A stretch of DNA of 64,000 nucleotides, taken from positions 186,001 to 250,000 of the forward strand of contig JAPOVP010000049.1 in the NCBI GenBank assembly GCA_026708085.1, in the 5' to 3' direction. Positions 2,620 through 52,360 of the stretch are shown here, in pieces; within the stretch, counting starts at the first letter, position 1, and every line of letters starts with the position of its first letter. Under the pieces are notes generated by a model. That model was not told the DNA's origin, ran no database searches, and saw only the letters and a program-made list of their open reading frames with translations. This stretch comes from Caldilineaceae bacterium. GTDB taxonomy: Bacteria; Chloroflexota; Anaerolineae; Caldilineales; Caldilineaceae. The position numbers and the translations under genes are program-made.

Positions 2620-5106
2620 ATGAATCCACATACGATTCGCGTTCTCGAATACGATAAGATTCTGAACAGGCTGGCCGCGTATTGCGCTTTCGACGGCGGG
2701 GTCGAACTGGCCACTTCACTCCTTCCCAGCGACGACCTGCGCACCATCAGCGACTGGATGGAGCAGACGGGCGAGGCCTGCCGCCTTCTCGACCAGAAGA
2801 CCGACATCTTCTTCGGAGGCGTCTACGACCTGCGCGCGCTCGTCGCAAAGTCCGAGCGTGGGAGTATACTGATTCCGACCGAGCTGGTTGAAATTCGTAC
2901 CACTCTGATGCGAGCACGAACACTTCGCAACACCTTGACCCGCCTGAACCGCCAGTTTCCGCGTCTAGCCGACATTGCTTTTTCCATCGAACCCTGTGAG
3001 CACGTCATCGGCGAAGTCAGCCGCTGCATAAACGACCGTGCCGAGGTCGTCGACGGCGCATCCTCGGAGCTAGGCCGGATCCGGGCCCAGTTACGCGTCG
3101 CCCAGGACAGGCTTCTCAGTACGCTTGACAGGCTCGTTCAGAATACGGAAATCATCCCGTTTCTGCAGGAGTCCATAGTTACGCAACGCCAGGGCCGCTA
3201 TGTCATTCCCGTGCGCTCCGAATACAAGGCGCAGGTACAAGGCATCGTCCACGACCAGTCGGCAAGCGGCGCCACATTCTTCATCGAACCTCTGGCCGTG
3301 GTAGAGCAGAACAATGCAGTGCGGGAACTTGAACTTGACGAGGAAAAGGAAGTTCGCCGCATCCTCGCCGAACTCTCGGATCTCGTTGCCGACGAAGGAC
3401 CCTACATCAACCGCAACGTGCAGGTTCTTTCCCAGCTCGACTTCACTTTTGCCAAAGCCAAGTATGCCCTCGAATTGGAGGCCAACGCCCCGGAGATAGT
3501 CCCTTTCCAGCAGAACAGGACTGAAATCTTCGCTGGAATCGACGAGGAAACCGGGGAAGAACGCACCATCCAACACCCTGGCTCCGTCCTCAACTTTCGC
3601 CAGGCCCGCCACCCCCTTCTGGACCCTGATTCCGTCGTTCCTATCGACGTCTATTTCGATAACGACTGCTACATCCTGGTCGTTACCGGCCCCAACACCG
3701 GCGGAAAGACGGTATCCCTGAAAACAGTAGGGCTCCTCACCCTCATGGCCCAGTCCGGCCTGATGATTCCCGTCGATGAAGGCAGTACGCTTTCGGTCTT
3801 CGAGGGCGTCTATGCAGACATCGGCGACGAACAGTCAATCGAACAAAACTTGAGCACCTTCTCAAGTCACATGACCAACATAATCAGCATTCTGGAAGAG
3901 GCCGACCCCCAGAGCCTCGTCCTTCTCGATGAACTTGGCGCCGGCACCGATCCCGACGAAGGTTCCGCCCTCGCCGCCGCTCTGCTCGAAAACCTGCGCG
4001 ACCGGGGCATAACAACACTGGCCACAACCCACTACAGCGATCTCAAACTTTACGCGCACAACACTGCCGGTGTCCGCAACGCCTCAGTTGAATTTGACGT
4101 CGAAAACCTGAGCCCGACATTCGAGCTAAGCATCGGCCTGCCAGGGCGCTCCAACGCCTTGACCATCGCCCGCCGCCTGGGCCTGAACCCGGTCATCGTC
4201 GATGACGCCGAAAGTATGTCACGTCCGGAATCTCTTGAAGTCGAAGCCATGCTGGAGGATGTAAGGCAAGCGCGGCAGGAAGCCAGACGCGTGCTGAATC
4301 TTGCCAAGGAGAGGGAGAGTCGCGCCCATGTGGCCGAAGAGGACCTGCGCTACCAGCTAGCCAGGATCGAAGAGGCGCGCCGCCAGGTCGTCGCCGAAAC
4401 CCGGGCGACGATGCAAAACGATCTGGCGGAAATCCGAGGCGAAATCGACGGCTTTCGCAGGCGTATGGCAAAGGGCGGCGGCAGCCAGGATGCACACGCC
4501 CAGTTCCTGCACCAGGCCAGTCAGACTGTCGGTCGTCGCCTGTTAGATTCCGAAGGCCGCGTCGAACAGGAGGTCGCGACGCCCGGCTCTCCTGACTCTC
4601 GAATTCGCGGGCCAATCGAAAAGGGAGACCGCGTTTTCGTGCCCAATCTGCAGGCCACCGGCGAGGTGATCGCGGTCGAAAACAAGGCCGGCGTACCGCA
4701 GGAGGCCGATGTTCAGGTAGGTAACTTCCGTCTCAGACTGCCGGTCAGGCGTCTGGAGCTGCGCAGTAAAGCCCAAGCAGAGCCGACTACCCCGCCCCAA
4801 CCCGCGGTAAGAGTGCAGAAGAGGACAAAGCAAGAGGGAGGCGCTTCGGCCTCGCTCACAGAGATCGATCTGAGGGGCGAAAGGGTCGATGCCGGCCTGC
4901 AGCGGCTGGAAGGTTACCTGGACGACGCATATCTTGAGAATCTTCCTTGGGTGCGAATCATACACGGCAAGGGTACCGGTGCAATGCGGGATGCCGTCCG
5001 CGCAGCCCTGAAAGGGCATCCGCTGGTCAGCAAGTACAGGCCGGGCGAGCTAGGCGAGGGCGATGACGGCGTTACGGTCGCCAATTTGATGACCGACGAA
5101 GGCTAG
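2620..5106 (+). CDS. mutS2: Endonuclease MutS2
   Basis: MutS-family ATPase without the mismatch-recognition domain. Members bind branched DNA and suppress homologous recombination, and more recently have been tied to rescue of collided ribosomes. At 828 residues it has the usual length. The core and clamp helices occupy the N-terminal part, the Walker A motif GPNTGGKT is at 357-364, and the Walker B region VLLDELGAGTDPDEG follows near 430. A coiled-coil arm comes next, and the last ~80 residues form a Smr nuclease domain with the signatures EIDLRG and IIHGKGTG. The domain set is complete, so activity is expected. The next gene starts 10 bases downstream on the same strand, so read-through into the polysaccharide genes is possible. 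Confidence 0.97.
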   Translation: MNPHTIRVLEYDKILNRLAAYCAFDGGVELATSLLPSDDLRTISDWMEQTGEACRLLDQKTDIFFGGVYDLRALVAKSERGSILIPTELVEIRTTLMRARTLRNTLTRLNRQFPRLADIAFSIEPCEHVIGEVSRCINDRAEVVDGASSELGRIRAQLRVAQDRLLSTLDRLVQNTEIIPFLQESIVTQRQGRYVIPVRSEYKAQVQGIVHDQSASGATFFIEPLAVVEQNNAVRELELDEEKEVRRILAELSDLVADEGPYINRNVQVLSQLDFTFAKAKYALELEANAPEIVPFQQNRTEIFAGIDEETGEERTIQHPGSVLNFRQARHPLLDPDSVVPIDVYFDNDCYILVVTGPNTGGKTVSLKTVGLLTLMAQSGLMIPVDEGSTLSVFEGVYADIGDEQSIEQNLSTFSSHMTNIISILEEADPQSLVLLDELGAGTDPDEGSALAAALLENLRDRGITTLATTHYSDLKLYAHNTAGVRNASVEFDVENLSPTFELSIGLPGRSNALTIARRLGLNPVIVDDAESMSRPESLEVEAMLEDVRQARQEARRVLNLAKERESRAHVAEEDLRYQLARIEEARRQVVAETRATMQNDLAEIRGEIDGFRRRMAKGGGSQDAHAQFLHQASQTVGRRLLDSEGRVEQEVATPGSPDSRIRGPIEKGDRVFVPNLQATGEVIAVENKAGVPQEADVQVGNFRLRLPVRRLELRSKAQAEPTTPPQPAVRVQKRTKQEGGASASLTEIDLRGERVDAGLQRLEGYLDDAYLENLPWVRIIHGKGTGAMRDAVRAALKGHPLVSKYRPGELGEGDDGVTVANLMTDEG

Positions 5107-29185: not shown

Positions 29186-29350
29186 CGGCGAAACCGGTTT
29201 GGGCTACGATTACCGAGCCGGACGCAAGCCAGCTCACGACCGCCGTTTGCAGTCGAGTGCGAAGTCGCTCTCTCTTACTTGCAGTAGGACGCGTGGGGTA
29301 GAATGCGGTAGTTGGCGCATTTCGACAAGAACGCAGCAGGAGAAAAGATC

Positions 29351-29560
29351 ATGGCAGAAGATGCCGTTCAGCAGCAGTCAGCTGTAGCCGAGAAAAATGC
29401 ACAGGATTCTGAGCAAGATTCATCTGAAACTCAGCAAGAGAGGCGCCCCAATGCCTTCGCGTTTAGTGGTATTTTGCTTGGTGGTTGGGCGGCTCTGATG
29501 ATTGCGTTTACTCTGATCGCCGTAATCGCCATGTCAGTTGTAGGAATGGTGGCTGGCTAA
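29351..29560 (+). CDS. Small single-pass membrane protein
   Basis: ATG 29351 is preceded by AGGAGAAAAGATC, a good ribosome-binding site; the open frame 13 codons upstream lacks one. The 69-residue product has a charged, Gln/Glu-rich N-terminal half (AEDAVQQQSAVAEKNAQDSE) and one hydrophobic helix at the C-terminus (GILLGGWAALMIAFTLIAVIAMSVVGMVAG, written here as two overlapping halves of a single segment around residues 39-69). It resembles no family I know. A C-terminal membrane tail with an acidic cytoplasmic head suggests a regulatory or assembly role, but nothing nearby identifies a partner. Confidence 0.7.
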   Translation: MAEDAVQQQSAVAEKNAQDSEQDSSETQQERRPNAFAFSGILLGGWAALMIAFTLIAVIAMSVVGMVAG

Positions 29561-29838
29561 CTCCCTGCCGCCCAGAACCGTGCCTGCACTGAACTGAAGC
29601 CAATCTACGCGGTTGCGGATTACGCAAGTGCTCCTTCACACACACCCAATTAGGGCCTGGACAGTCCAACCTTCTTTTTCCTCCACCCTAAAGCCCAAGT
29701 TGATATGAGCCAAACCTTGGCTCCTTGCACCCAACCGGCATGGGCAAGCGATCTCGCGTCCAAGAGTTCCCCTCCAAAAGGTCTCGTTTACCTTTACCTC
29801 AGGCATGGTCCCATCGATCCCCAAGCAGCAAACAAACT

Positions 29839-29867
29839 TTGCACTCAGGTAAAACTGCTGCTATAAT
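29839..29867 (+). promoter_or_regulatory. Strong promoter of a structured leader/ncRNA
   Basis: TTGCAC (29839-29844), 17 bases, then a perfect TATAAT (29862-29867). The start would be near 29874. No ORF with a ribosome-binding site follows until the gene at 30328, so the transcript begins with about 450 untranslated bases. Confidence 0.75.
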
Positions 29868-29873
29868 CCCGGC

Positions 29874-30012
29874 GCACGCATGATGGTGCGTGCCACTCTC
29901 CACTTAAGACATGTCGAATTTGGCTGAATGGGAGAACCTGACGGAAGGGGTGTGACCTGAACATACCCTGGCGTTGTGTGGCGATGTAAGACAGATAGGG
30001 TGGGAGTGCTCC
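29874..30012 (+). ncRNA. Candidate structured RNA, rod-like with 5' hairpin
   Basis: Immediately after the promoter there is a perfect hairpin, GCACGCA (29874-29880) with TGCGTGC (29887-29893). A closing helix follows: CACTCTCCAC (29894-29903) pairs with GTGGGAGTG (30000-30008) with one bulge and one G-U. Inside it, CTTA (29903-29906) faces TAAG (29987-29990), and a terminal hairpin forms from GGGTGTG (29948-29954) and CATACCC (29962-29968) with one G-U. The result is a bulged rod of about 115 bases. I could not match it to 6S, SRP, RNase P or tmRNA motifs. It may be a separate ncRNA or the first part of the leader of the gene at 30328. Confidence 0.45.
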
Positions 30013-30142
30013 AAAGATACTGACAAGGCTATCTAGCCAATTCAAACGGAGGATAAGAACCCAATAGCACAACCTTGCGGGCGGAATTCTGGAACGTACT
30101 CCGAGTTTAGTTCGCAGAATGTTACAGATCTCGCAGGTTTTA

Positions 30143-30162
30143 CGGCAGGTTCACCTCTGCCG
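30143..30162 (+). promoter_or_regulatory. Hairpin in the structured leader
   Basis: CGGCAG (30143-30148) pairs perfectly with CTGCCG (30157-30162), leaving an 8-base loop. It ends three bases before the interlocked hairpins and may stack on them. Confidence 0.45.
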
Positions 30163-30164
30163 CA

Positions 30165-30198
30165 GCATGTGTCTTCGGGCCACATGCCTCGCCCGAAG
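30165..30198 (+). promoter_or_regulatory. Interlocked perfect hairpins: candidate pseudoknot or switch
   Basis: GCATGTG (30165-30171) pairs with CACATGC (30181-30187). CTTCGGGC (30173-30180) in its loop pairs with GCCCGAAG (30191-30198) downstream. Both stems are perfect, 7 and 8 bp. They can coexist as an H-type pseudoknot with no base between the stacked stems and linkers of 1 and 3 bases, or they exclude each other as two alternative hairpins. The element lies 130 bases before the start codon at 30328. Tight linkers make the switch reading at least as likely as a full pseudoknot. Confidence 0.55.
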
Positions 30199-30327
30199 TC
30201 ATGCGTATACTCAAGCACTGCTTAAAAGAGTCTTCGCAATCCACATTCGCCGTTTGATCCACAACTAAGCGAAGCGAAGGCGCCCACAATAGCGTTCACG
30301 CAGCAATTAGGGAGCAGTCTACCTGCA

Positions 30328-32319
30328 ATGGCGAAAAAAATCTACGCATACGGAATGGACGGATTCGTCACTCCCATGATGAAGTACTTCGCATCGGAGG
30401 GCTGCCTTCCTAATTTCAGCCGCTTGCTCAGGGAGGGTACAGTCAACGAGACCTATCCCTCCTTCCCCGTCTGGACACCGACCAACTGGGCAACTCTTTC
30501 CACCGGCGCCCACACCGGCACACACAGCGTCCCAACGTGGCAGACCGTAATTGAGCGAAAGTCAGGCGCTGGCGAGAAGGACGTTTCAGTTAGCAGTTTT
30601 GACGGCCGTGCCAACAACGCCGAACGCATCTGGAACTCTTTGGAGCGGGCCGGCCTCAAGAGCGTCGCCGTACACTACCCGGGGGCCCATCCTTCAGGTG
30701 TGGAAATCGGCTATGTTGTCGACGGTTTCGGCGCGCCAGGACACAATAGCACGGAATTTGAAGTAGCTGCGGCCCAGGCCTACACAACTGATCCCTCCAA
30801 GGCCAGCGATGTTGCCATGGCTCACGACGGTTCAGCCATCCAAGGACCTCGCAGCGTTGAGCCCATCGAGTCGCTCGCTGCTGCCGAGGGCTGGACCAAT
30901 CTGCCGGACAGTGCCTCGACTCCGCTGGCGACAACCTTTTCGGTCAACGCGCGTCTGGGTGGAGACGCCAACCACTTTCACCTGCTTGCCGTCGACAGAA
31001 CGGGTAGTGGCTACGACCGCGTTCTGATTTGTCGCAGTCTCGACGCCGGTGAGATTGTGGCCGAGGCTAACCTCGGCGGTTGGAGTGACTGGGCTATCCA
31101 GGACTTTCTGATCGACGGTCAAGCTCAGGAAGCCGCGGTCCGTTTCAAGTTGCTAGAATTGGCCCCTGATGGCAGTTCGTTGAAACTCTACCGAACACAA
31201 GTTACCTATACCAACGGCTTTACGTACGGCGATTCTGAATTGGAAGCCGAACTCATTCGCCGATTTGGTCCCTATCAGGAACATGCCTCGATGACACCCT
31301 ATACCTCAGGCATGACCGAATTCGATACAGCTCTTGAAGAGTGCGAATACCAGGGCCTCTGGTTTGCCAAGGTGGCAAATTACATGCTCCACGAGAGAGA
31401 TTGCTCCTACTTCACCTGCCACTGGCACCTGTATGACTATCTCAATCACATTCACCTGGCTGACGCGGACCCTGCCTGTCCCGGTTTCAATCCGGACACC
31501 AAAGAGAAGTATCTGGACTACTTCCGCCGCACCTACCAGGTCGGCGACCGCGTCCTGGGCCTGATGTACGAGGCGGCCGACAGGGCCAACCAAGACGGTG
31601 ATGAAGTTTACGTTGGCATCATCTCCGATCATGGTGCCTACCCTGACGTCCGTATCGCTAACCTTCGCCAGTTCCTTTGCGACGAGGGCTTCCTCGTTCT
31701 GCAGCAAGGTGGGGAAGATGCGATCGCCAAGGACCTGGACCCTCATTCAGACGAGATTGATTGGGACAGGACCAAAGCCTATCTCGCAAGGCGCGGGTTC
31801 GACATTACTATCAACGCCGATCCCGGACCGAAATTCGACCAGATCGAACGCGAGTTGCTCACCGCCCTCCGCACCTGGGTTGACGAAGAAACTGGCAACA
31901 CCGTTGTCGCTGTCGCCCTGCCCAAACGCGACGCCTATCTGCTGGGGCAGTGGGGAGATGAGTGCGGTGACGTCATCTTCGCCTGGGACCACGACTATGT
32001 AAGCGGATACTACACGCAATGGCTCGGAATCGAAGGCGGGGGAAATGTCGGCGCACCTCTTGTATACGGCGCCCATCATGGCGGCTTCATTCCAACCACA
32101 AACGGCTTTTCATCCACTTTCGGCTCGTTTTTCCTCGACGGACCGGGCCTAAAGAAGGGATATGAACGCCCTGTTGACCGGCTGGGCTACATTCATGCCG
32201 TCGACGTCGTCCCGACGTTTTGCCACATCCTTGGCGTCGATCCTCCCGCGCAAGCCCAGGGTACAGTAGTGCGCGATCTCTATGAGGGACATGAAATGGT
32301 CAGGGAGAGGCAGAAATGA
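30328..32319 (+). CDS. Alkaline-phosphatase-superfamily phosphodiesterase (type I phosphodiesterase/nucleotide pyrophosphatase-like)
   Basis: The 663-residue protein has the superfamily metal site and nucleophile: YGMDGF near the start with a metal-binding Asp, PTNWATLSTGAHTGTH with the nucleophilic Thr, and the later metal ligands in GIISDHGAYPD and YGAHHGGF. No signal peptide is present, so it acts in the cytoplasm unless exported otherwise. Such enzymes cleave phosphodiester, pyrophosphate or phosphonate bonds. It overlaps the first permease gene by four bases (ATGA) and heads a sugar-uptake operon, which suggests it processes an imported phosphorylated or phosphodiester-linked sugar. GGGAG 13 bases upstream is the probable ribosome-binding site. 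Confidence 0.85.
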   Translation: MAKKIYAYGMDGFVTPMMKYFASEGCLPNFSRLLREGTVNETYPSFPVWTPTNWATLSTGAHTGTHSVPTWQTVIERKSGAGEKDVSVSSFDGRANNAERIWNSLERAGLKSVAVHYPGAHPSGVEIGYVVDGFGAPGHNSTEFEVAAAQAYTTDPSKASDVAMAHDGSAIQGPRSVEPIESLAAAEGWTNLPDSASTPLATTFSVNARLGGDANHFHLLAVDRTGSGYDRVLICRSLDAGEIVAEANLGGWSDWAIQDFLIDGQAQEAAVRFKLLELAPDGSSLKLYRTQVTYTNGFTYGDSELEAELIRRFGPYQEHASMTPYTSGMTEFDTALEECEYQGLWFAKVANYMLHERDCSYFTCHWHLYDYLNHIHLADADPACPGFNPDTKEKYLDYFRRTYQVGDRVLGLMYEAADRANQDGDEVYVGIISDHGAYPDVRIANLRQFLCDEGFLVLQQGGEDAIAKDLDPHSDEIDWDRTKAYLARRGFDITINADPGPKFDQIERELLTALRTWVDEETGNTVVAVALPKRDAYLLGQWGDECGDVIFAWDHDYVSGYYTQWLGIEGGGNVGAPLVYGAHHGGFIPTTNGFSSTFGSFFLDGPGLKKGYERPVDRLGYIHAVDVVPTFCHILGVDPPAQAQGTVVRDLYEGHEMVRERQK

Positions 32320-33266
32320 CGACGAAAGCGTTAGCGGGCGCACGGATACCACTTCCCAGCTGGACGAGGAACCTCCGCGCCAAAGAGGCAATCGCCGGTT
32401 ACATTTTTCTGTCGCCATGGCTGCTGGGCATAATTCTCTTTATCATCGGTCCAATGATGACCTCCGGCTTCCTCAGCTTCACCCGCTACGACATCGTCAA
32501 CCCACCCGAATTTGTCGGCCTGAAGAACTTCATCGAGATTTTCACAAAAGACCGGCTCTTCTGGCCCTCGATGATGCTTACCTTCCGCTACGCGTTGATA
32601 GTCGTACCACTTTCTCTTATTGGGGCCCTCGCGGCTGCAATGCTCCTTAATCAGGCACTTCTGGGAACGACATGGTTTCGTACCTTCTTTTTCCTGCCCC
32701 ACCTCACTCCCATCGTCGCAGCCGCCGTCCTCTGGGGCTGGATATTCAACGCTGACGTAGGGCCGATCAACCATTGGATTCGTACCATCACCGGCAGCGA
32801 CAACGCCCCGGGATGGTTCCGAGACCCGGACTGGGCGATGACCGGCCTGATAATTATGGCAATGTGGGGTGCAATCGGCGGCAACACCATGCTGATCTTC
32901 CTGGCGGGCCTGCAAGGGGTTCCCCAGGAGCTGTACGATGCCGCGGTCGTCGACGGCGCAGGCTTATGGGCCAAGTTTCGAAACGTGACCCTTCCGATGC
33001 TGACGCCGACGATCTTCTTCAATATGGTTCTTGGAATCATCGGGGCACTAAGAGTATTTGCGGCCGCGTACGTGGCCACCCAGGGCGGGCCGGCATACTC
33101 TACCTGGTTTTACGCATTGCACATCTACACGCGCGCATTCCAGTACTTTGAAATGGGCTATGCTTCGGCTCTGGCTTGGATCTTCTTCTTCGTATTGTTC
33201 GTCTTTACCTACGTTCAGTTCAGACAGTCGCGACGATGGGTCTATTACGCAGGGGAGGTGGACTGA
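32316..33266 (+). CDS. Sugar ABC transporter permease 1A (MalF/UgpA type)
   Basis: Inner-membrane subunit of a carbohydrate importer, 316 residues with about six helices, starting with the first at AGYIFLSPWLLGIILFIIG. The EAA loop that docks the ATPase reads LYDAAVVDGAGLWAKFRNVT near 215. It overlaps the phosphodiesterase gene by four bases and the next permease by one base, so three genes are tightly coupled. The cognate ATPase gene is not in the window; in many bacteria one MsmK-like ATPase serves several such transporters. Confidence 0.93.
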   Translation: MTTKALAGARIPLPSWTRNLRAKEAIAGYIFLSPWLLGIILFIIGPMMTSGFLSFTRYDIVNPPEFVGLKNFIEIFTKDRLFWPSMMLTFRYALIVVPLSLIGALAAAMLLNQALLGTTWFRTFFFLPHLTPIVAAAVLWGWIFNADVGPINHWIRTITGSDNAPGWFRDPDWAMTGLIIMAMWGAIGGNTMLIFLAGLQGVPQELYDAAVVDGAGLWAKFRNVTLPMLTPTIFFNMVLGIIGALRVFAAAYVATQGGPAYSTWFYALHIYTRAFQYFEMGYASALAWIFFFVLFVFTYVQFRQSRRWVYYAGEVD

Positions 33267-34192
33267 TGGCGGGCGAAGCAATCGCAACGGGCAGAAAGCA
33301 GACCGGGAGTGGATTGAACCAAGCCGGGATCTTCCAGTCAGCCTCATTCCAGCGCGCAATCGGCCGAGGAATTCTCTATCTGATCGCCGTTTCCAGTTCG
33401 GCCGTATTCATGTTCCCCTTTGTTTGGACAGTACTCTCCTCTCTGAAGAGAGGCGGTGAGTTGTTCAGGTTTCCCCCTACCTGGCTTCCGGAGGTTCCAC
33501 AGTTTCAAAACTATCCGAAAGTCTTCGAAATCGTTTCCTGGGCCACATGGACTTGGAACTCGACCTTCGTGGCGATTGTTTCAACTTTCGGGGCCGTTCT
33601 GACCGCCGCGCTCGTCGGCTACTCATTTGCCCGTTTTCGATACCCCGCCCGCGACGTACTGTTCATCATCACTCTCAGCACAATGATGCTGCCTGTAGAA
33701 GTCACCCTGATACCCCTCTACCTCATGTTTGCAAAGATTGGATGGCTGGACTCCTACAGACCGCTGATCATCCCTTCATTTTTCGGAGGCAGCGCATTCC
33801 TCATCTTTCTCATGCGCCAGTTCTTTATGAGCATTCCCATCGATCTTGACGAAGCAGCACGAATAGACGGCGCTAACTATCTGCGAATCTTCTGGCAGAT
33901 TCTGATGCCTCTTTCCATTCCTGTTACGGCAACTGCGGCCGTACTGACCTTCATGGCACAGTGGAATGAGTTTCTTCAGCCATTTATCTTTCTCAACACG
34001 AAGTCCAAATACACGTTGGCGATCGGCATTCGCTATTTCCAGGCCGTCGCCGGATTTGCCGATGACACTGAGCCAAAATACCACCTTCTCATGGCTGCCA
34101 GTGTCATGATGACTGCACCCATTATTGTCATCTTTTTCCTTGCGCAGCGTTATCTGGTCCAGGGGATTGTGATGTCCGGTATCAAAGGATAG
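33266..34192 (+). CDS. Sugar ABC transporter permease 1B (MalG/UgpE type)
   Basis: I start at ATG 33266, which uses the last base of the preceding stop codon and has GGGAGG nine bases upstream. The 308-residue protein has six hydrophobic segments and the EAA loop DEAARIDGANYLRIFWQIL near 212. It is the expected partner of permease 1A. The binding-protein genes follow after a 61-base gap. Confidence 0.93.
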   Translation: MAGEAIATGRKQTGSGLNQAGIFQSASFQRAIGRGILYLIAVSSSAVFMFPFVWTVLSSLKRGGELFRFPPTWLPEVPQFQNYPKVFEIVSWATWTWNSTFVAIVSTFGAVLTAALVGYSFARFRYPARDVLFIITLSTMMLPVEVTLIPLYLMFAKIGWLDSYRPLIIPSFFGGSAFLIFLMRQFFMSIPIDLDEAARIDGANYLRIFWQILMPLSIPVTATAAVLTFMAQWNEFLQPFIFLNTKSKYTLAIGIRYFQAVAGFADDTEPKYHLLMAASVMMTAPIIVIFFLAQRYLVQGIVMSGIKG

Positions 34193-34253
34193 CGCAGTTC
34201 TCAGAAATCTGGTTGTCGTAGAACGTTCAGTTATTCCCAAGGAGGAGTCAACC

Positions 34254-35585
34254 ATGCTTAAGAAGAATGTGAGTCGCCGCCAGTTCCTGGCAGGGTCAAT
34301 GGCAGCAACGGGAGCTCTGGCTCTGTCTGCCTGCGTGCCCGCTGCTCCCACAGCAGGTGAGGGTGGGGAGTCGATGGAGGCTTCGACAGAACCCGTCACC
34401 GTCCTATTCCACACGCGGCTTGGAACCCATGCCGACTGGCACAAGAGCCGCAAGGACCTGTTCGAAGAGCAGAATCCCGGCATTCTACTCGAAATCGACG
34501 AGTTGCCGGGCAATGAAATGTATCCCAAGATTTACGCTCTTTCAGCCTCCGGCACGGTGGGCGATGTAGTCTGGACCTATCTCAACAATCCGCCGGAACA
34601 CAAGGCCAAGGGCGTCCTGGTCCCCTTGGACGATATCGTCGCCGCCAAAAACTTCGATCTCTCCCAATTCTGGGATTCCTTGCTCGAAGCCGTCACGCTC
34701 GACGGTGAACTGCACGCCATTCCCAACCACGGCCATTACGGCACGACCGCCTACTATCACAACAAGACCCTCATCGAAGCATCAGGCGCAGAGAACCCCA
34801 ACCCCGACTGGACTGTCGATGACTACATCACTATAGGGCAAGCGGTCACGGATCCGCCCGAGGTCTGGGGCGTCCGTAGCTTCGGTACAGGCCAGGAGCA
34901 CATCCCCTCCTACTTGCGCATCTTCGGCGGCGATGCAATCAACGAGGAGGGGACACAATCCTTGCTGGGCGAGGAGGAGTCCATCGCGGGCCTGCGCTGG
35001 CTCTACGACCTTCAGCACACACATCAGATTGATCCCTGCCAGTGCGGCGACGAAGTTGCCAATAACTACGTCGCAGGTACTGTAGGCATCTTTAACACGA
35101 CGACGGGTTGGATCGGCCGCTTGAATAACATGAAGAACGACGGCGATCTGGAGTTCGATTGGGATGCTGTAGTCGGCCCGATTGGACCGACTGGCTTGCG
35201 CGGTTCACAAGTGTCGGCTGCTGCTTTTGGCATCACCGGCAACTCCGAACATCCCTCGGAAGCCTTCCAGGTTCTGGACTTCTATTCGACCAAAGAGGAC
35301 GGCATCGAGCATGTATTCTTCGGCGCTGGCAGTCCTGGTGGCCGCAAGGACGTTTGGGAGAGCGATGAGCTCAACTCCATCCACCCGATTTTCCGTCAGC
35401 ACCAGGAAATCTATCCAGAAGGCCCGCGCAAGTGGCATCGCCCTGCCAACGCCCGTACGTCTGAGTTTGTCAATACGATGAACAACAATCTGCAGGCAAT
35501 CTGGACGCAGGCAGTGGAGTTCGAAGAGGGTGTAGAGCAGACCCATCTCCTCGTCCAGGAGATTTTGGACAAGGATCCGGTCTGA
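34254..35585 (+). CDS. Sugar-binding lipoprotein 1 (ABC transporter)
   Basis: Extracytoplasmic solute-binding protein, 443 residues, preceded by AAGGAGG. The N-terminus has a twin-arginine motif SRRQFL (7-12), a hydrophobic stretch and a lipobox LSAC with Cys27, so it is exported folded and lipid-anchored. The mature part follows the extracellular solute-binding family 1 pattern. It is very similar along its length to the next gene, with identical blocks such as PGNEMYPKIYALSASGTVGD and SAAAFGITGNS; the pair is a tandem duplication. The ligand is unknown. Confidence 0.93.
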   Translation: MLKKNVSRRQFLAGSMAATGALALSACVPAAPTAGEGGESMEASTEPVTVLFHTRLGTHADWHKSRKDLFEEQNPGILLEIDELPGNEMYPKIYALSASGTVGDVVWTYLNNPPEHKAKGVLVPLDDIVAAKNFDLSQFWDSLLEAVTLDGELHAIPNHGHYGTTAYYHNKTLIEASGAENPNPDWTVDDYITIGQAVTDPPEVWGVRSFGTGQEHIPSYLRIFGGDAINEEGTQSLLGEEESIAGLRWLYDLQHTHQIDPCQCGDEVANNYVAGTVGIFNTTTGWIGRLNNMKNDGDLEFDWDAVVGPIGPTGLRGSQVSAAAFGITGNSEHPSEAFQVLDFYSTKEDGIEHVFFGAGSPGGRKDVWESDELNSIHPIFRQHQEIYPEGPRKWHRPANARTSEFVNTMNNNLQAIWTQAVEFEEGVEQTHLLVQEILDKDPV

Positions 35586-52195: not shown

Positions 52196-52360
52196 TCAGT
52201 AGGTTCTTTTTCGAGTTGAAAGTTTGACTGTCAGTTCTGTTCGCTGCTTAAGGCGACGGCGCTTCAGCACATTCCGTCCACCCGGCTTGCTCATACGCTT
52301 GCGGAAACCATGTGTCCGCAGCCGCTTGCGAACCTTCGGCTGCCAGGTTCGTTTGGGCAT
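52196..52360 (-). CDS. rpmH: 50S ribosomal protein L34
   Basis: ATG 52360 is preceded by AAGGAGTGAAG; the longer frame has no site. The 54-residue protein begins [20 protein letters not shown] with [18 protein letters not shown], the diagnostic L34 sequence, with a short C-terminal extension ([12 protein letters not shown]). It is the first gene of the rpmH-rnpA-yidD-yidC-jag block, which in most bacteria sits next to dnaA and oriC. Confidence 0.97.

Follow-up and report, generated by a model that had tools for sequence, protein, structure and literature searches.

A genus-restricted candidate structured leader upstream of a phosphodiesterase/ABC-importer operon in Caldilineaceae

The explanation that best fits the data, to which we assign a probability of roughly 60%, is that a stretch of about 460 nt in a Caldilineaceae genome (Chloroflexota) is the structured 5′ leader of an operon, restricted to one genus, and that it most likely controls translation initiation upon a signal. 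This leader came to attention through a sequence-only reading of a 64,000-base stretch of the genome (hereafter, the window), in which two interlocked hairpins were taken to be a pseudoknot or molecular switch. Comparison with relatives bears out a homologous structured leader in which one of the two hairpins (stem 2) persists through compensatory changes, but the interlocking is not retained.

Genomic setting and layout of the leader

Both stems lie within a 767-nt intergenic gap, 130 nt upstream of a phosphodiesterase/ABC-importer operon (Table 1). The gap is bordered by an 82-amino-acid ORF (29312–29560) and by the gene for the phosphodiesterase, a protein of 663 amino acids. The ORF, which has no match in Pfam or NCBIfam, encodes one hydrophobic segment as judged by eye and recurs upstream of the leader across the genus loci with 48–78% identity. 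Wherever contigs of the genus reach far enough, the order is aldo/keto reductase, small ORF, leader, phosphodiesterase, permease, permease, and binding protein. The best NCBIfam models for the two permeases are UgpA and UgpE, with scores far under the cut-off, and the operon suggests a substrate that may be phosphodiester or sugar-like.

Table 1. Features of the leader and its operon in window coordinates.
Feature	Positions	Strand	Evidence
Promoter-like motif, TTTGCA-N18-TATAAT	29838–29867	+	10/12 consensus matches; recurs in genus leaders
Predicted hairpin directly 3′ of the promoter-like motif (29874–29881 with 29886–29893)	29874–29893	+	Single-sequence fold; RNAalifold on three close leaders
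Hairpin H1, CGGCAG/CUGCCG	30143–30162	+	Leader alignments; RNAalifold
Hairpin H2: outer stem 30165–30169/30200–30204, inner stem 30173–30180/30191–30198 (stem 2), loop 30181–30190	30165–30204	+	Hand alignment of 14 leaders; folds
Stem 1, 30165–30171/30181–30187	30165–30187	+	Present in the window; not conserved
Hairpin P3, 30230–30237 with 30274–30281	30230–30281	+	Leader alignments
GGGAG, likely ribosome-binding site, 13 nt 5′ of the ATG	30310–30314	+	Sequence; spacing equal in other leaders
Phosphodiesterase/nucleotide pyrophosphatase family gene (type I)	30328–32319	+	PF01663, E = 1.1e-18
Two ABC permease genes and a solute-binding protein gene, same operon	32316–35585	+	Domain searches; order kept in genus loci

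Thirteen of the 16 leaders from the genus (counting the window, and with TATACT in locus L016) carry a promoter-like motif 438–470 nt 5′ of the ATG, and shuffles of the searched stretch contain on average 0.8 sites as good. The same pattern did not find the motif in L010 and L050 among these 16. In L040 (positions 3745–4000) it lies only 255 nt from the ATG, most of the middle being gone while promoter and core are retained, and thus the middle of the leader appears to be dispensable.

The core is a 151-nt region of three hairpins (H1, H2, and P3) that ends about 40 nt upstream of the ATG. Taken over its entire 458 nt, the leader folds barely better than shuffled sequences (z = −1.24). The H1–H2 portion folds far below its shuffles in six of eight leaders (0 or 1 of 200 as low); the other values are 13/200 for L010 and 9/200 for L027. 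P3 is seen in the aligned leaders around GCCUUCGC/GCGGAGGC.

Searches for known RNAs in this region gave little. No Rfam family, Chloroflexi-1 included, matches the leader at the gathering threshold, and the one match at a relaxed threshold falls outside the stems and was judged to be due to chance. The gap contains no tRNA or tmRNA by search, three tRNAs being located far off. A small conserved ORF behind a mid-leader GGAGG was considered and dropped, as no common start codon could be recognized by eye.

Hairpin H2 and the interleaved stems

The 34-base unit at positions 30165–30198, GCATGTGTCTTCGGGCCACATGCCTCGCCCGAAG, holds two perfect interleaved stems letter for letter as they had been read, namely GCATGTG/CACATGC (stem 1, 7 bp) and CTTCGGGC/GCCCGAAG (stem 2, 8 bp), and hence the window sequence can be drawn as an H-type pseudoknot. 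However, the statement that chance formation of such a unit is unlikely proved too strong. Forty simulated 64-kb windows (third-order Markov) contained five interleaved perfect 7 + 7-bp sites of no more than 40 nt, which is 0.125 per window, and another interleaved pair of perfect 7-bp stems exists in the window itself at 52318–52351. Such a match is uncommon among 64,000 bases, but not remarkable. The unit is also not a dispersed palindromic repeat or a transposon end, the alternative that the sequence-only reading had named, because a 101-nt query spanning it has a single match in the 6.24-Mb source genome, where a covariance model likewise finds a single locus.

We compared the window leader with 13 orthologous leaders. 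RNAalifold recovered H1 and P3 but not H2 on the initial alignment (A1), because MAFFT had gapped one arm of H2, and the H2 arms were then aligned by hand. As a control, whole 3′ arms were exchanged among the 14 sequences in 10,000 trials, which is a generous test given that the sequences are related. Stem 2 has 95 of 112 cells paired, a value that none of the 10,000 arm swaps equals. Individual leaders form four to eight of its eight pairs, with seven or eight in 12 of the 14. At position 5 of the stem, for example, the leaders carry G-C (four), A-U (five), G-U (three), U-A (one), and an A-C mismatch (one). From these compensatory changes in the aligned sequences, stem 2 is judged to be a real helix, and the possibility that relatives keep neither stem is thereby set aside.

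The outcome is different for stem 1, for which the same check of homologous leaders had been proposed. Only 40 of 98 cells are paired compared to a swap mean of 40.6, which is no excess. All seven pairs are present in the window only, five are present in its two nearest relatives, and one to three are present in the remaining 11. Instead, the 5′ beginning of stem 1, GCAU(G), can pair in most relatives with the (C)AUGC located just downstream of stem 2. This pairing encloses stem 2 as a nested hairpin and therefore excludes stem 1. The outer stem has 50 of 56 cells paired and is changed on both sides once, where L008 carries A-U instead of U-A, and taken alone it is not significant, as 3,579 of 10,000 arm swaps score as high.

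Folding energies agree with the nested arrangement, with −18.8 kcal/mol for the nested fold of the window versus −8.4 kcal/mol for stem 1 alone. Minimum-energy folding of the window yields the nested hairpin, and that of the relatives yields stem 2 or a shifted version of it, except that the loop is partly paired in L010, L013, and L028 and the outer stem is gone in L040. The loop ends in GCCUC, which is conserved even though it is unpaired in the model. Stem 1, and the interlocked pairing with it, is most likely a coincidence that arises because the loop sequence CACAUGC in the window resembles the downstream UCAUGC.

Distribution, covariation, and history of the core

A DNA search with the leader among 61 genomes yielded matches in five, including that of the window, and all belong to one genus. 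The downstream protein is more widespread, with 45 loci from Caldilineaceae metagenome-assembled genomes (MAGs) and from distant ones (Latescibacterota, Gemmatimonadota, Poribacteria, and others). One of these loci (L041) is from the MPML assembly, which corresponds to Caldilineaceae bin5 of the sponge Aplysina aerophoba (PMC5649159). The phosphodiesterase gene is carried by 20 of 46 genomes in the family sample, and 16 of those 20 belong to the genus, which is represented by 17 genomes. Proteins about 59–69% identical occur in MAGs of Latescibacterota, Gemmatimonadota, Poribacteria, and a Deltaproteobacterium, a likeness that may reflect exchange between phyla.

A covariance model built from 10 leaders (R1) recognizes 13 of the 14 leaders at E values up to 0.001, including the held-out L010, L012, and L027, while L013 scores 0.24. 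Elsewhere in the window it gives one reverse-strand match (E = 0.57). Among the 61 genomes, R1 matches 13 of the 17 from the genus, and the 44 others give no match. Two additional weak matches in genome G009 lie inside long frames and were rejected. A second model from 13 leaders (R2) matches 14 of the 17 at E values up to 0.1, the weakest being 0.019 (G008), with one locus per genome except for an extra chance-level match in G014 (E = 0.083). R2 did not find the core in G004, G011, and G013, of which the first and last carry the gene and G011 lacks it. When R2 was applied to 31 gene loci (28 from outside the genus plus L013, L016, and L050), L013 alone matched. The core was not found in L016, where the 440 nt before position 4001 retain the promoter-like motif and resemble a fragment of coding sequence by eye. 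Among 400 genomes sampled from the phylum, five pass E = 0.01, one of them being the genome of the window. The other four (20–23 bits, within long stop-free frames) were judged to be chance matches. Wherever it is found, the core adjoins the phosphodiesterase gene. Comparison of sequences thus places homologous leaders at one conserved locus, with the promoter-like motif and the stems of H1 and H2 in common.

On the structure-fitted alignment (A5), 89.2% of cells are paired and eight pairs are changed on both sides, and none of 500 shuffles scores as high. Support is weaker on the unfitted alignment (A3), where three pairs show a two-sided change (83/500 shuffles as high) and the covariation score is reached by 6/500. 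H1 joins stem 2 in showing compensatory changes, as seen on A5, whereas neither P3 nor the outer H2 stem qualifies alone; P3 has no two-sided change on A5, and its variation is mainly one-sided, by way of G-U pairs. The helices on A5 include 26 G-U and 10 A-C cells, which fits this strand being the RNA. A search for shared helices returned H1, P3, and a few short near-invariant complementarities.

Leader and gene do not seem to share a simple history. In many pairs the core is more alike than the four-fold sites of the gene, as for L008 versus L014 (0.77 versus 0.48). The opposite is true for the window and L008, whose core similarity is 0.62 compared to 0.75 at four-fold sites and 94% protein identity. 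The gene tree joins the window to L008 and L009, whereas the leader tree places the window with L045 and L028 and sets L008 and L009 apart, near L014, L015, and L040. Similarity to L008 and L009 climbs along the operon (30328–35585) from 0.62 in the core through 94% for the phosphodiesterase to 99.7–100% identity for the first permease. It looks like the body of the operon has recombined, the boundary lying close to the start codon, and an event of this kind would explain the conflict between the two trees.

Proposed action, alternatives, and known systems

We propose that H2 would adopt the nested form, with GCAU(G)/(C)AUGC as the outer stem, stem 2 as the inner stem, and GCCUC at the end of the loop. 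H1, H2, and P3 would then be positioned shortly upstream of the likely ribosome-binding site. The leader is probably transcribed with the operon and probably regulatory. Because no terminator-like site was found across 29300–30500 and the core stops so close to the ATG, we infer that control of translation initiation or of mRNA stability is likeliest. The leader would thus act on translation initiation of the operon mRNA, probably upon a ligand or protein signal.

A switch of a different kind within the leader may be compatible with the data. One version, which we regard as a long shot, is a new kind of translational switch in which the H2 loop would pair with P3 and so release the 5′ strand of P3, which could then cover the ribosome-binding site. 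This site would become accessible upon a signal that holds H2 and P3 apart. At least 85% of the compared leaders could form each of the two pairings, namely GCCU of the H2 loop with AGGC in the 3′ arm of P3, and CUUC in the 5′ arm of P3 with GGAG in the ribosome-binding site. These letters, however, are nearly invariant, such that covariation is uninformative there, and they are also constrained by P3.

It is unlikely, in our estimation, that the hairpins serve only as a stability element that protects or processes the operon mRNA without sensing. The unremarkable stability of the leader overall and the short L040 leader, which keeps just promoter and core, agree with such a role, but the unpaired GCCUC of the H2 loop is conserved beyond what stability alone would require. 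We consider it distinctly improbable that there is no functional RNA and that the leader was kept by descent with hairpins formed by chance. All relatives are of one genus and the covariation on A3 is modest, as this view would predict, but the compensatory changes in stem 2 and the low folding energies of H1 and H2 argue otherwise. Poorer still are the prospects for a separate small RNA between two genes, which would account for the promoter-like motif and the structured core, but which is at odds with the missing terminator-like site and with a core that ends beside the same gene each time. Least probable is that precisely stems 1 and 2 make up an H-type pseudoknot or a switch of two hairpins, perhaps in this species only, since these perfect stems and the five pairs retained by the two nearest relatives are outweighed by the absence of excess pairing, by the energies, and by the tightness of a 3-nt loop that spans a 7-bp stem. 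By sequence comparison, this arrangement is conserved in no relative and the reading is not supported.

The leader of the Caldilineaceae operon is therefore best regarded as a candidate regulatory RNA that precedes an uptake operon in uncultured members of the Chloroflexota, a sponge being the source of at least one of these, and for which no description was found in the literature searched. Comparative genomics has produced other candidate structured leader RNAs, such as Chloroflexi-1 (RF01698) (PMC2864571). The likeness is that a conserved structured RNA candidate is defined by comparing relatives; the present leader differs from Chloroflexi-1 in that it has no Rfam match and occupies one locus in one genus.

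The resemblance to H-type pseudoknot riboswitches consists of interleaved stems that can be drawn in the window. In the present leader, however, the interleaving is not conserved, and one stem is nested in the relatives. A striking pseudoknot drawn from a single sequence can thus fail to survive an alignment of relatives even though one of its stems proves to be real.
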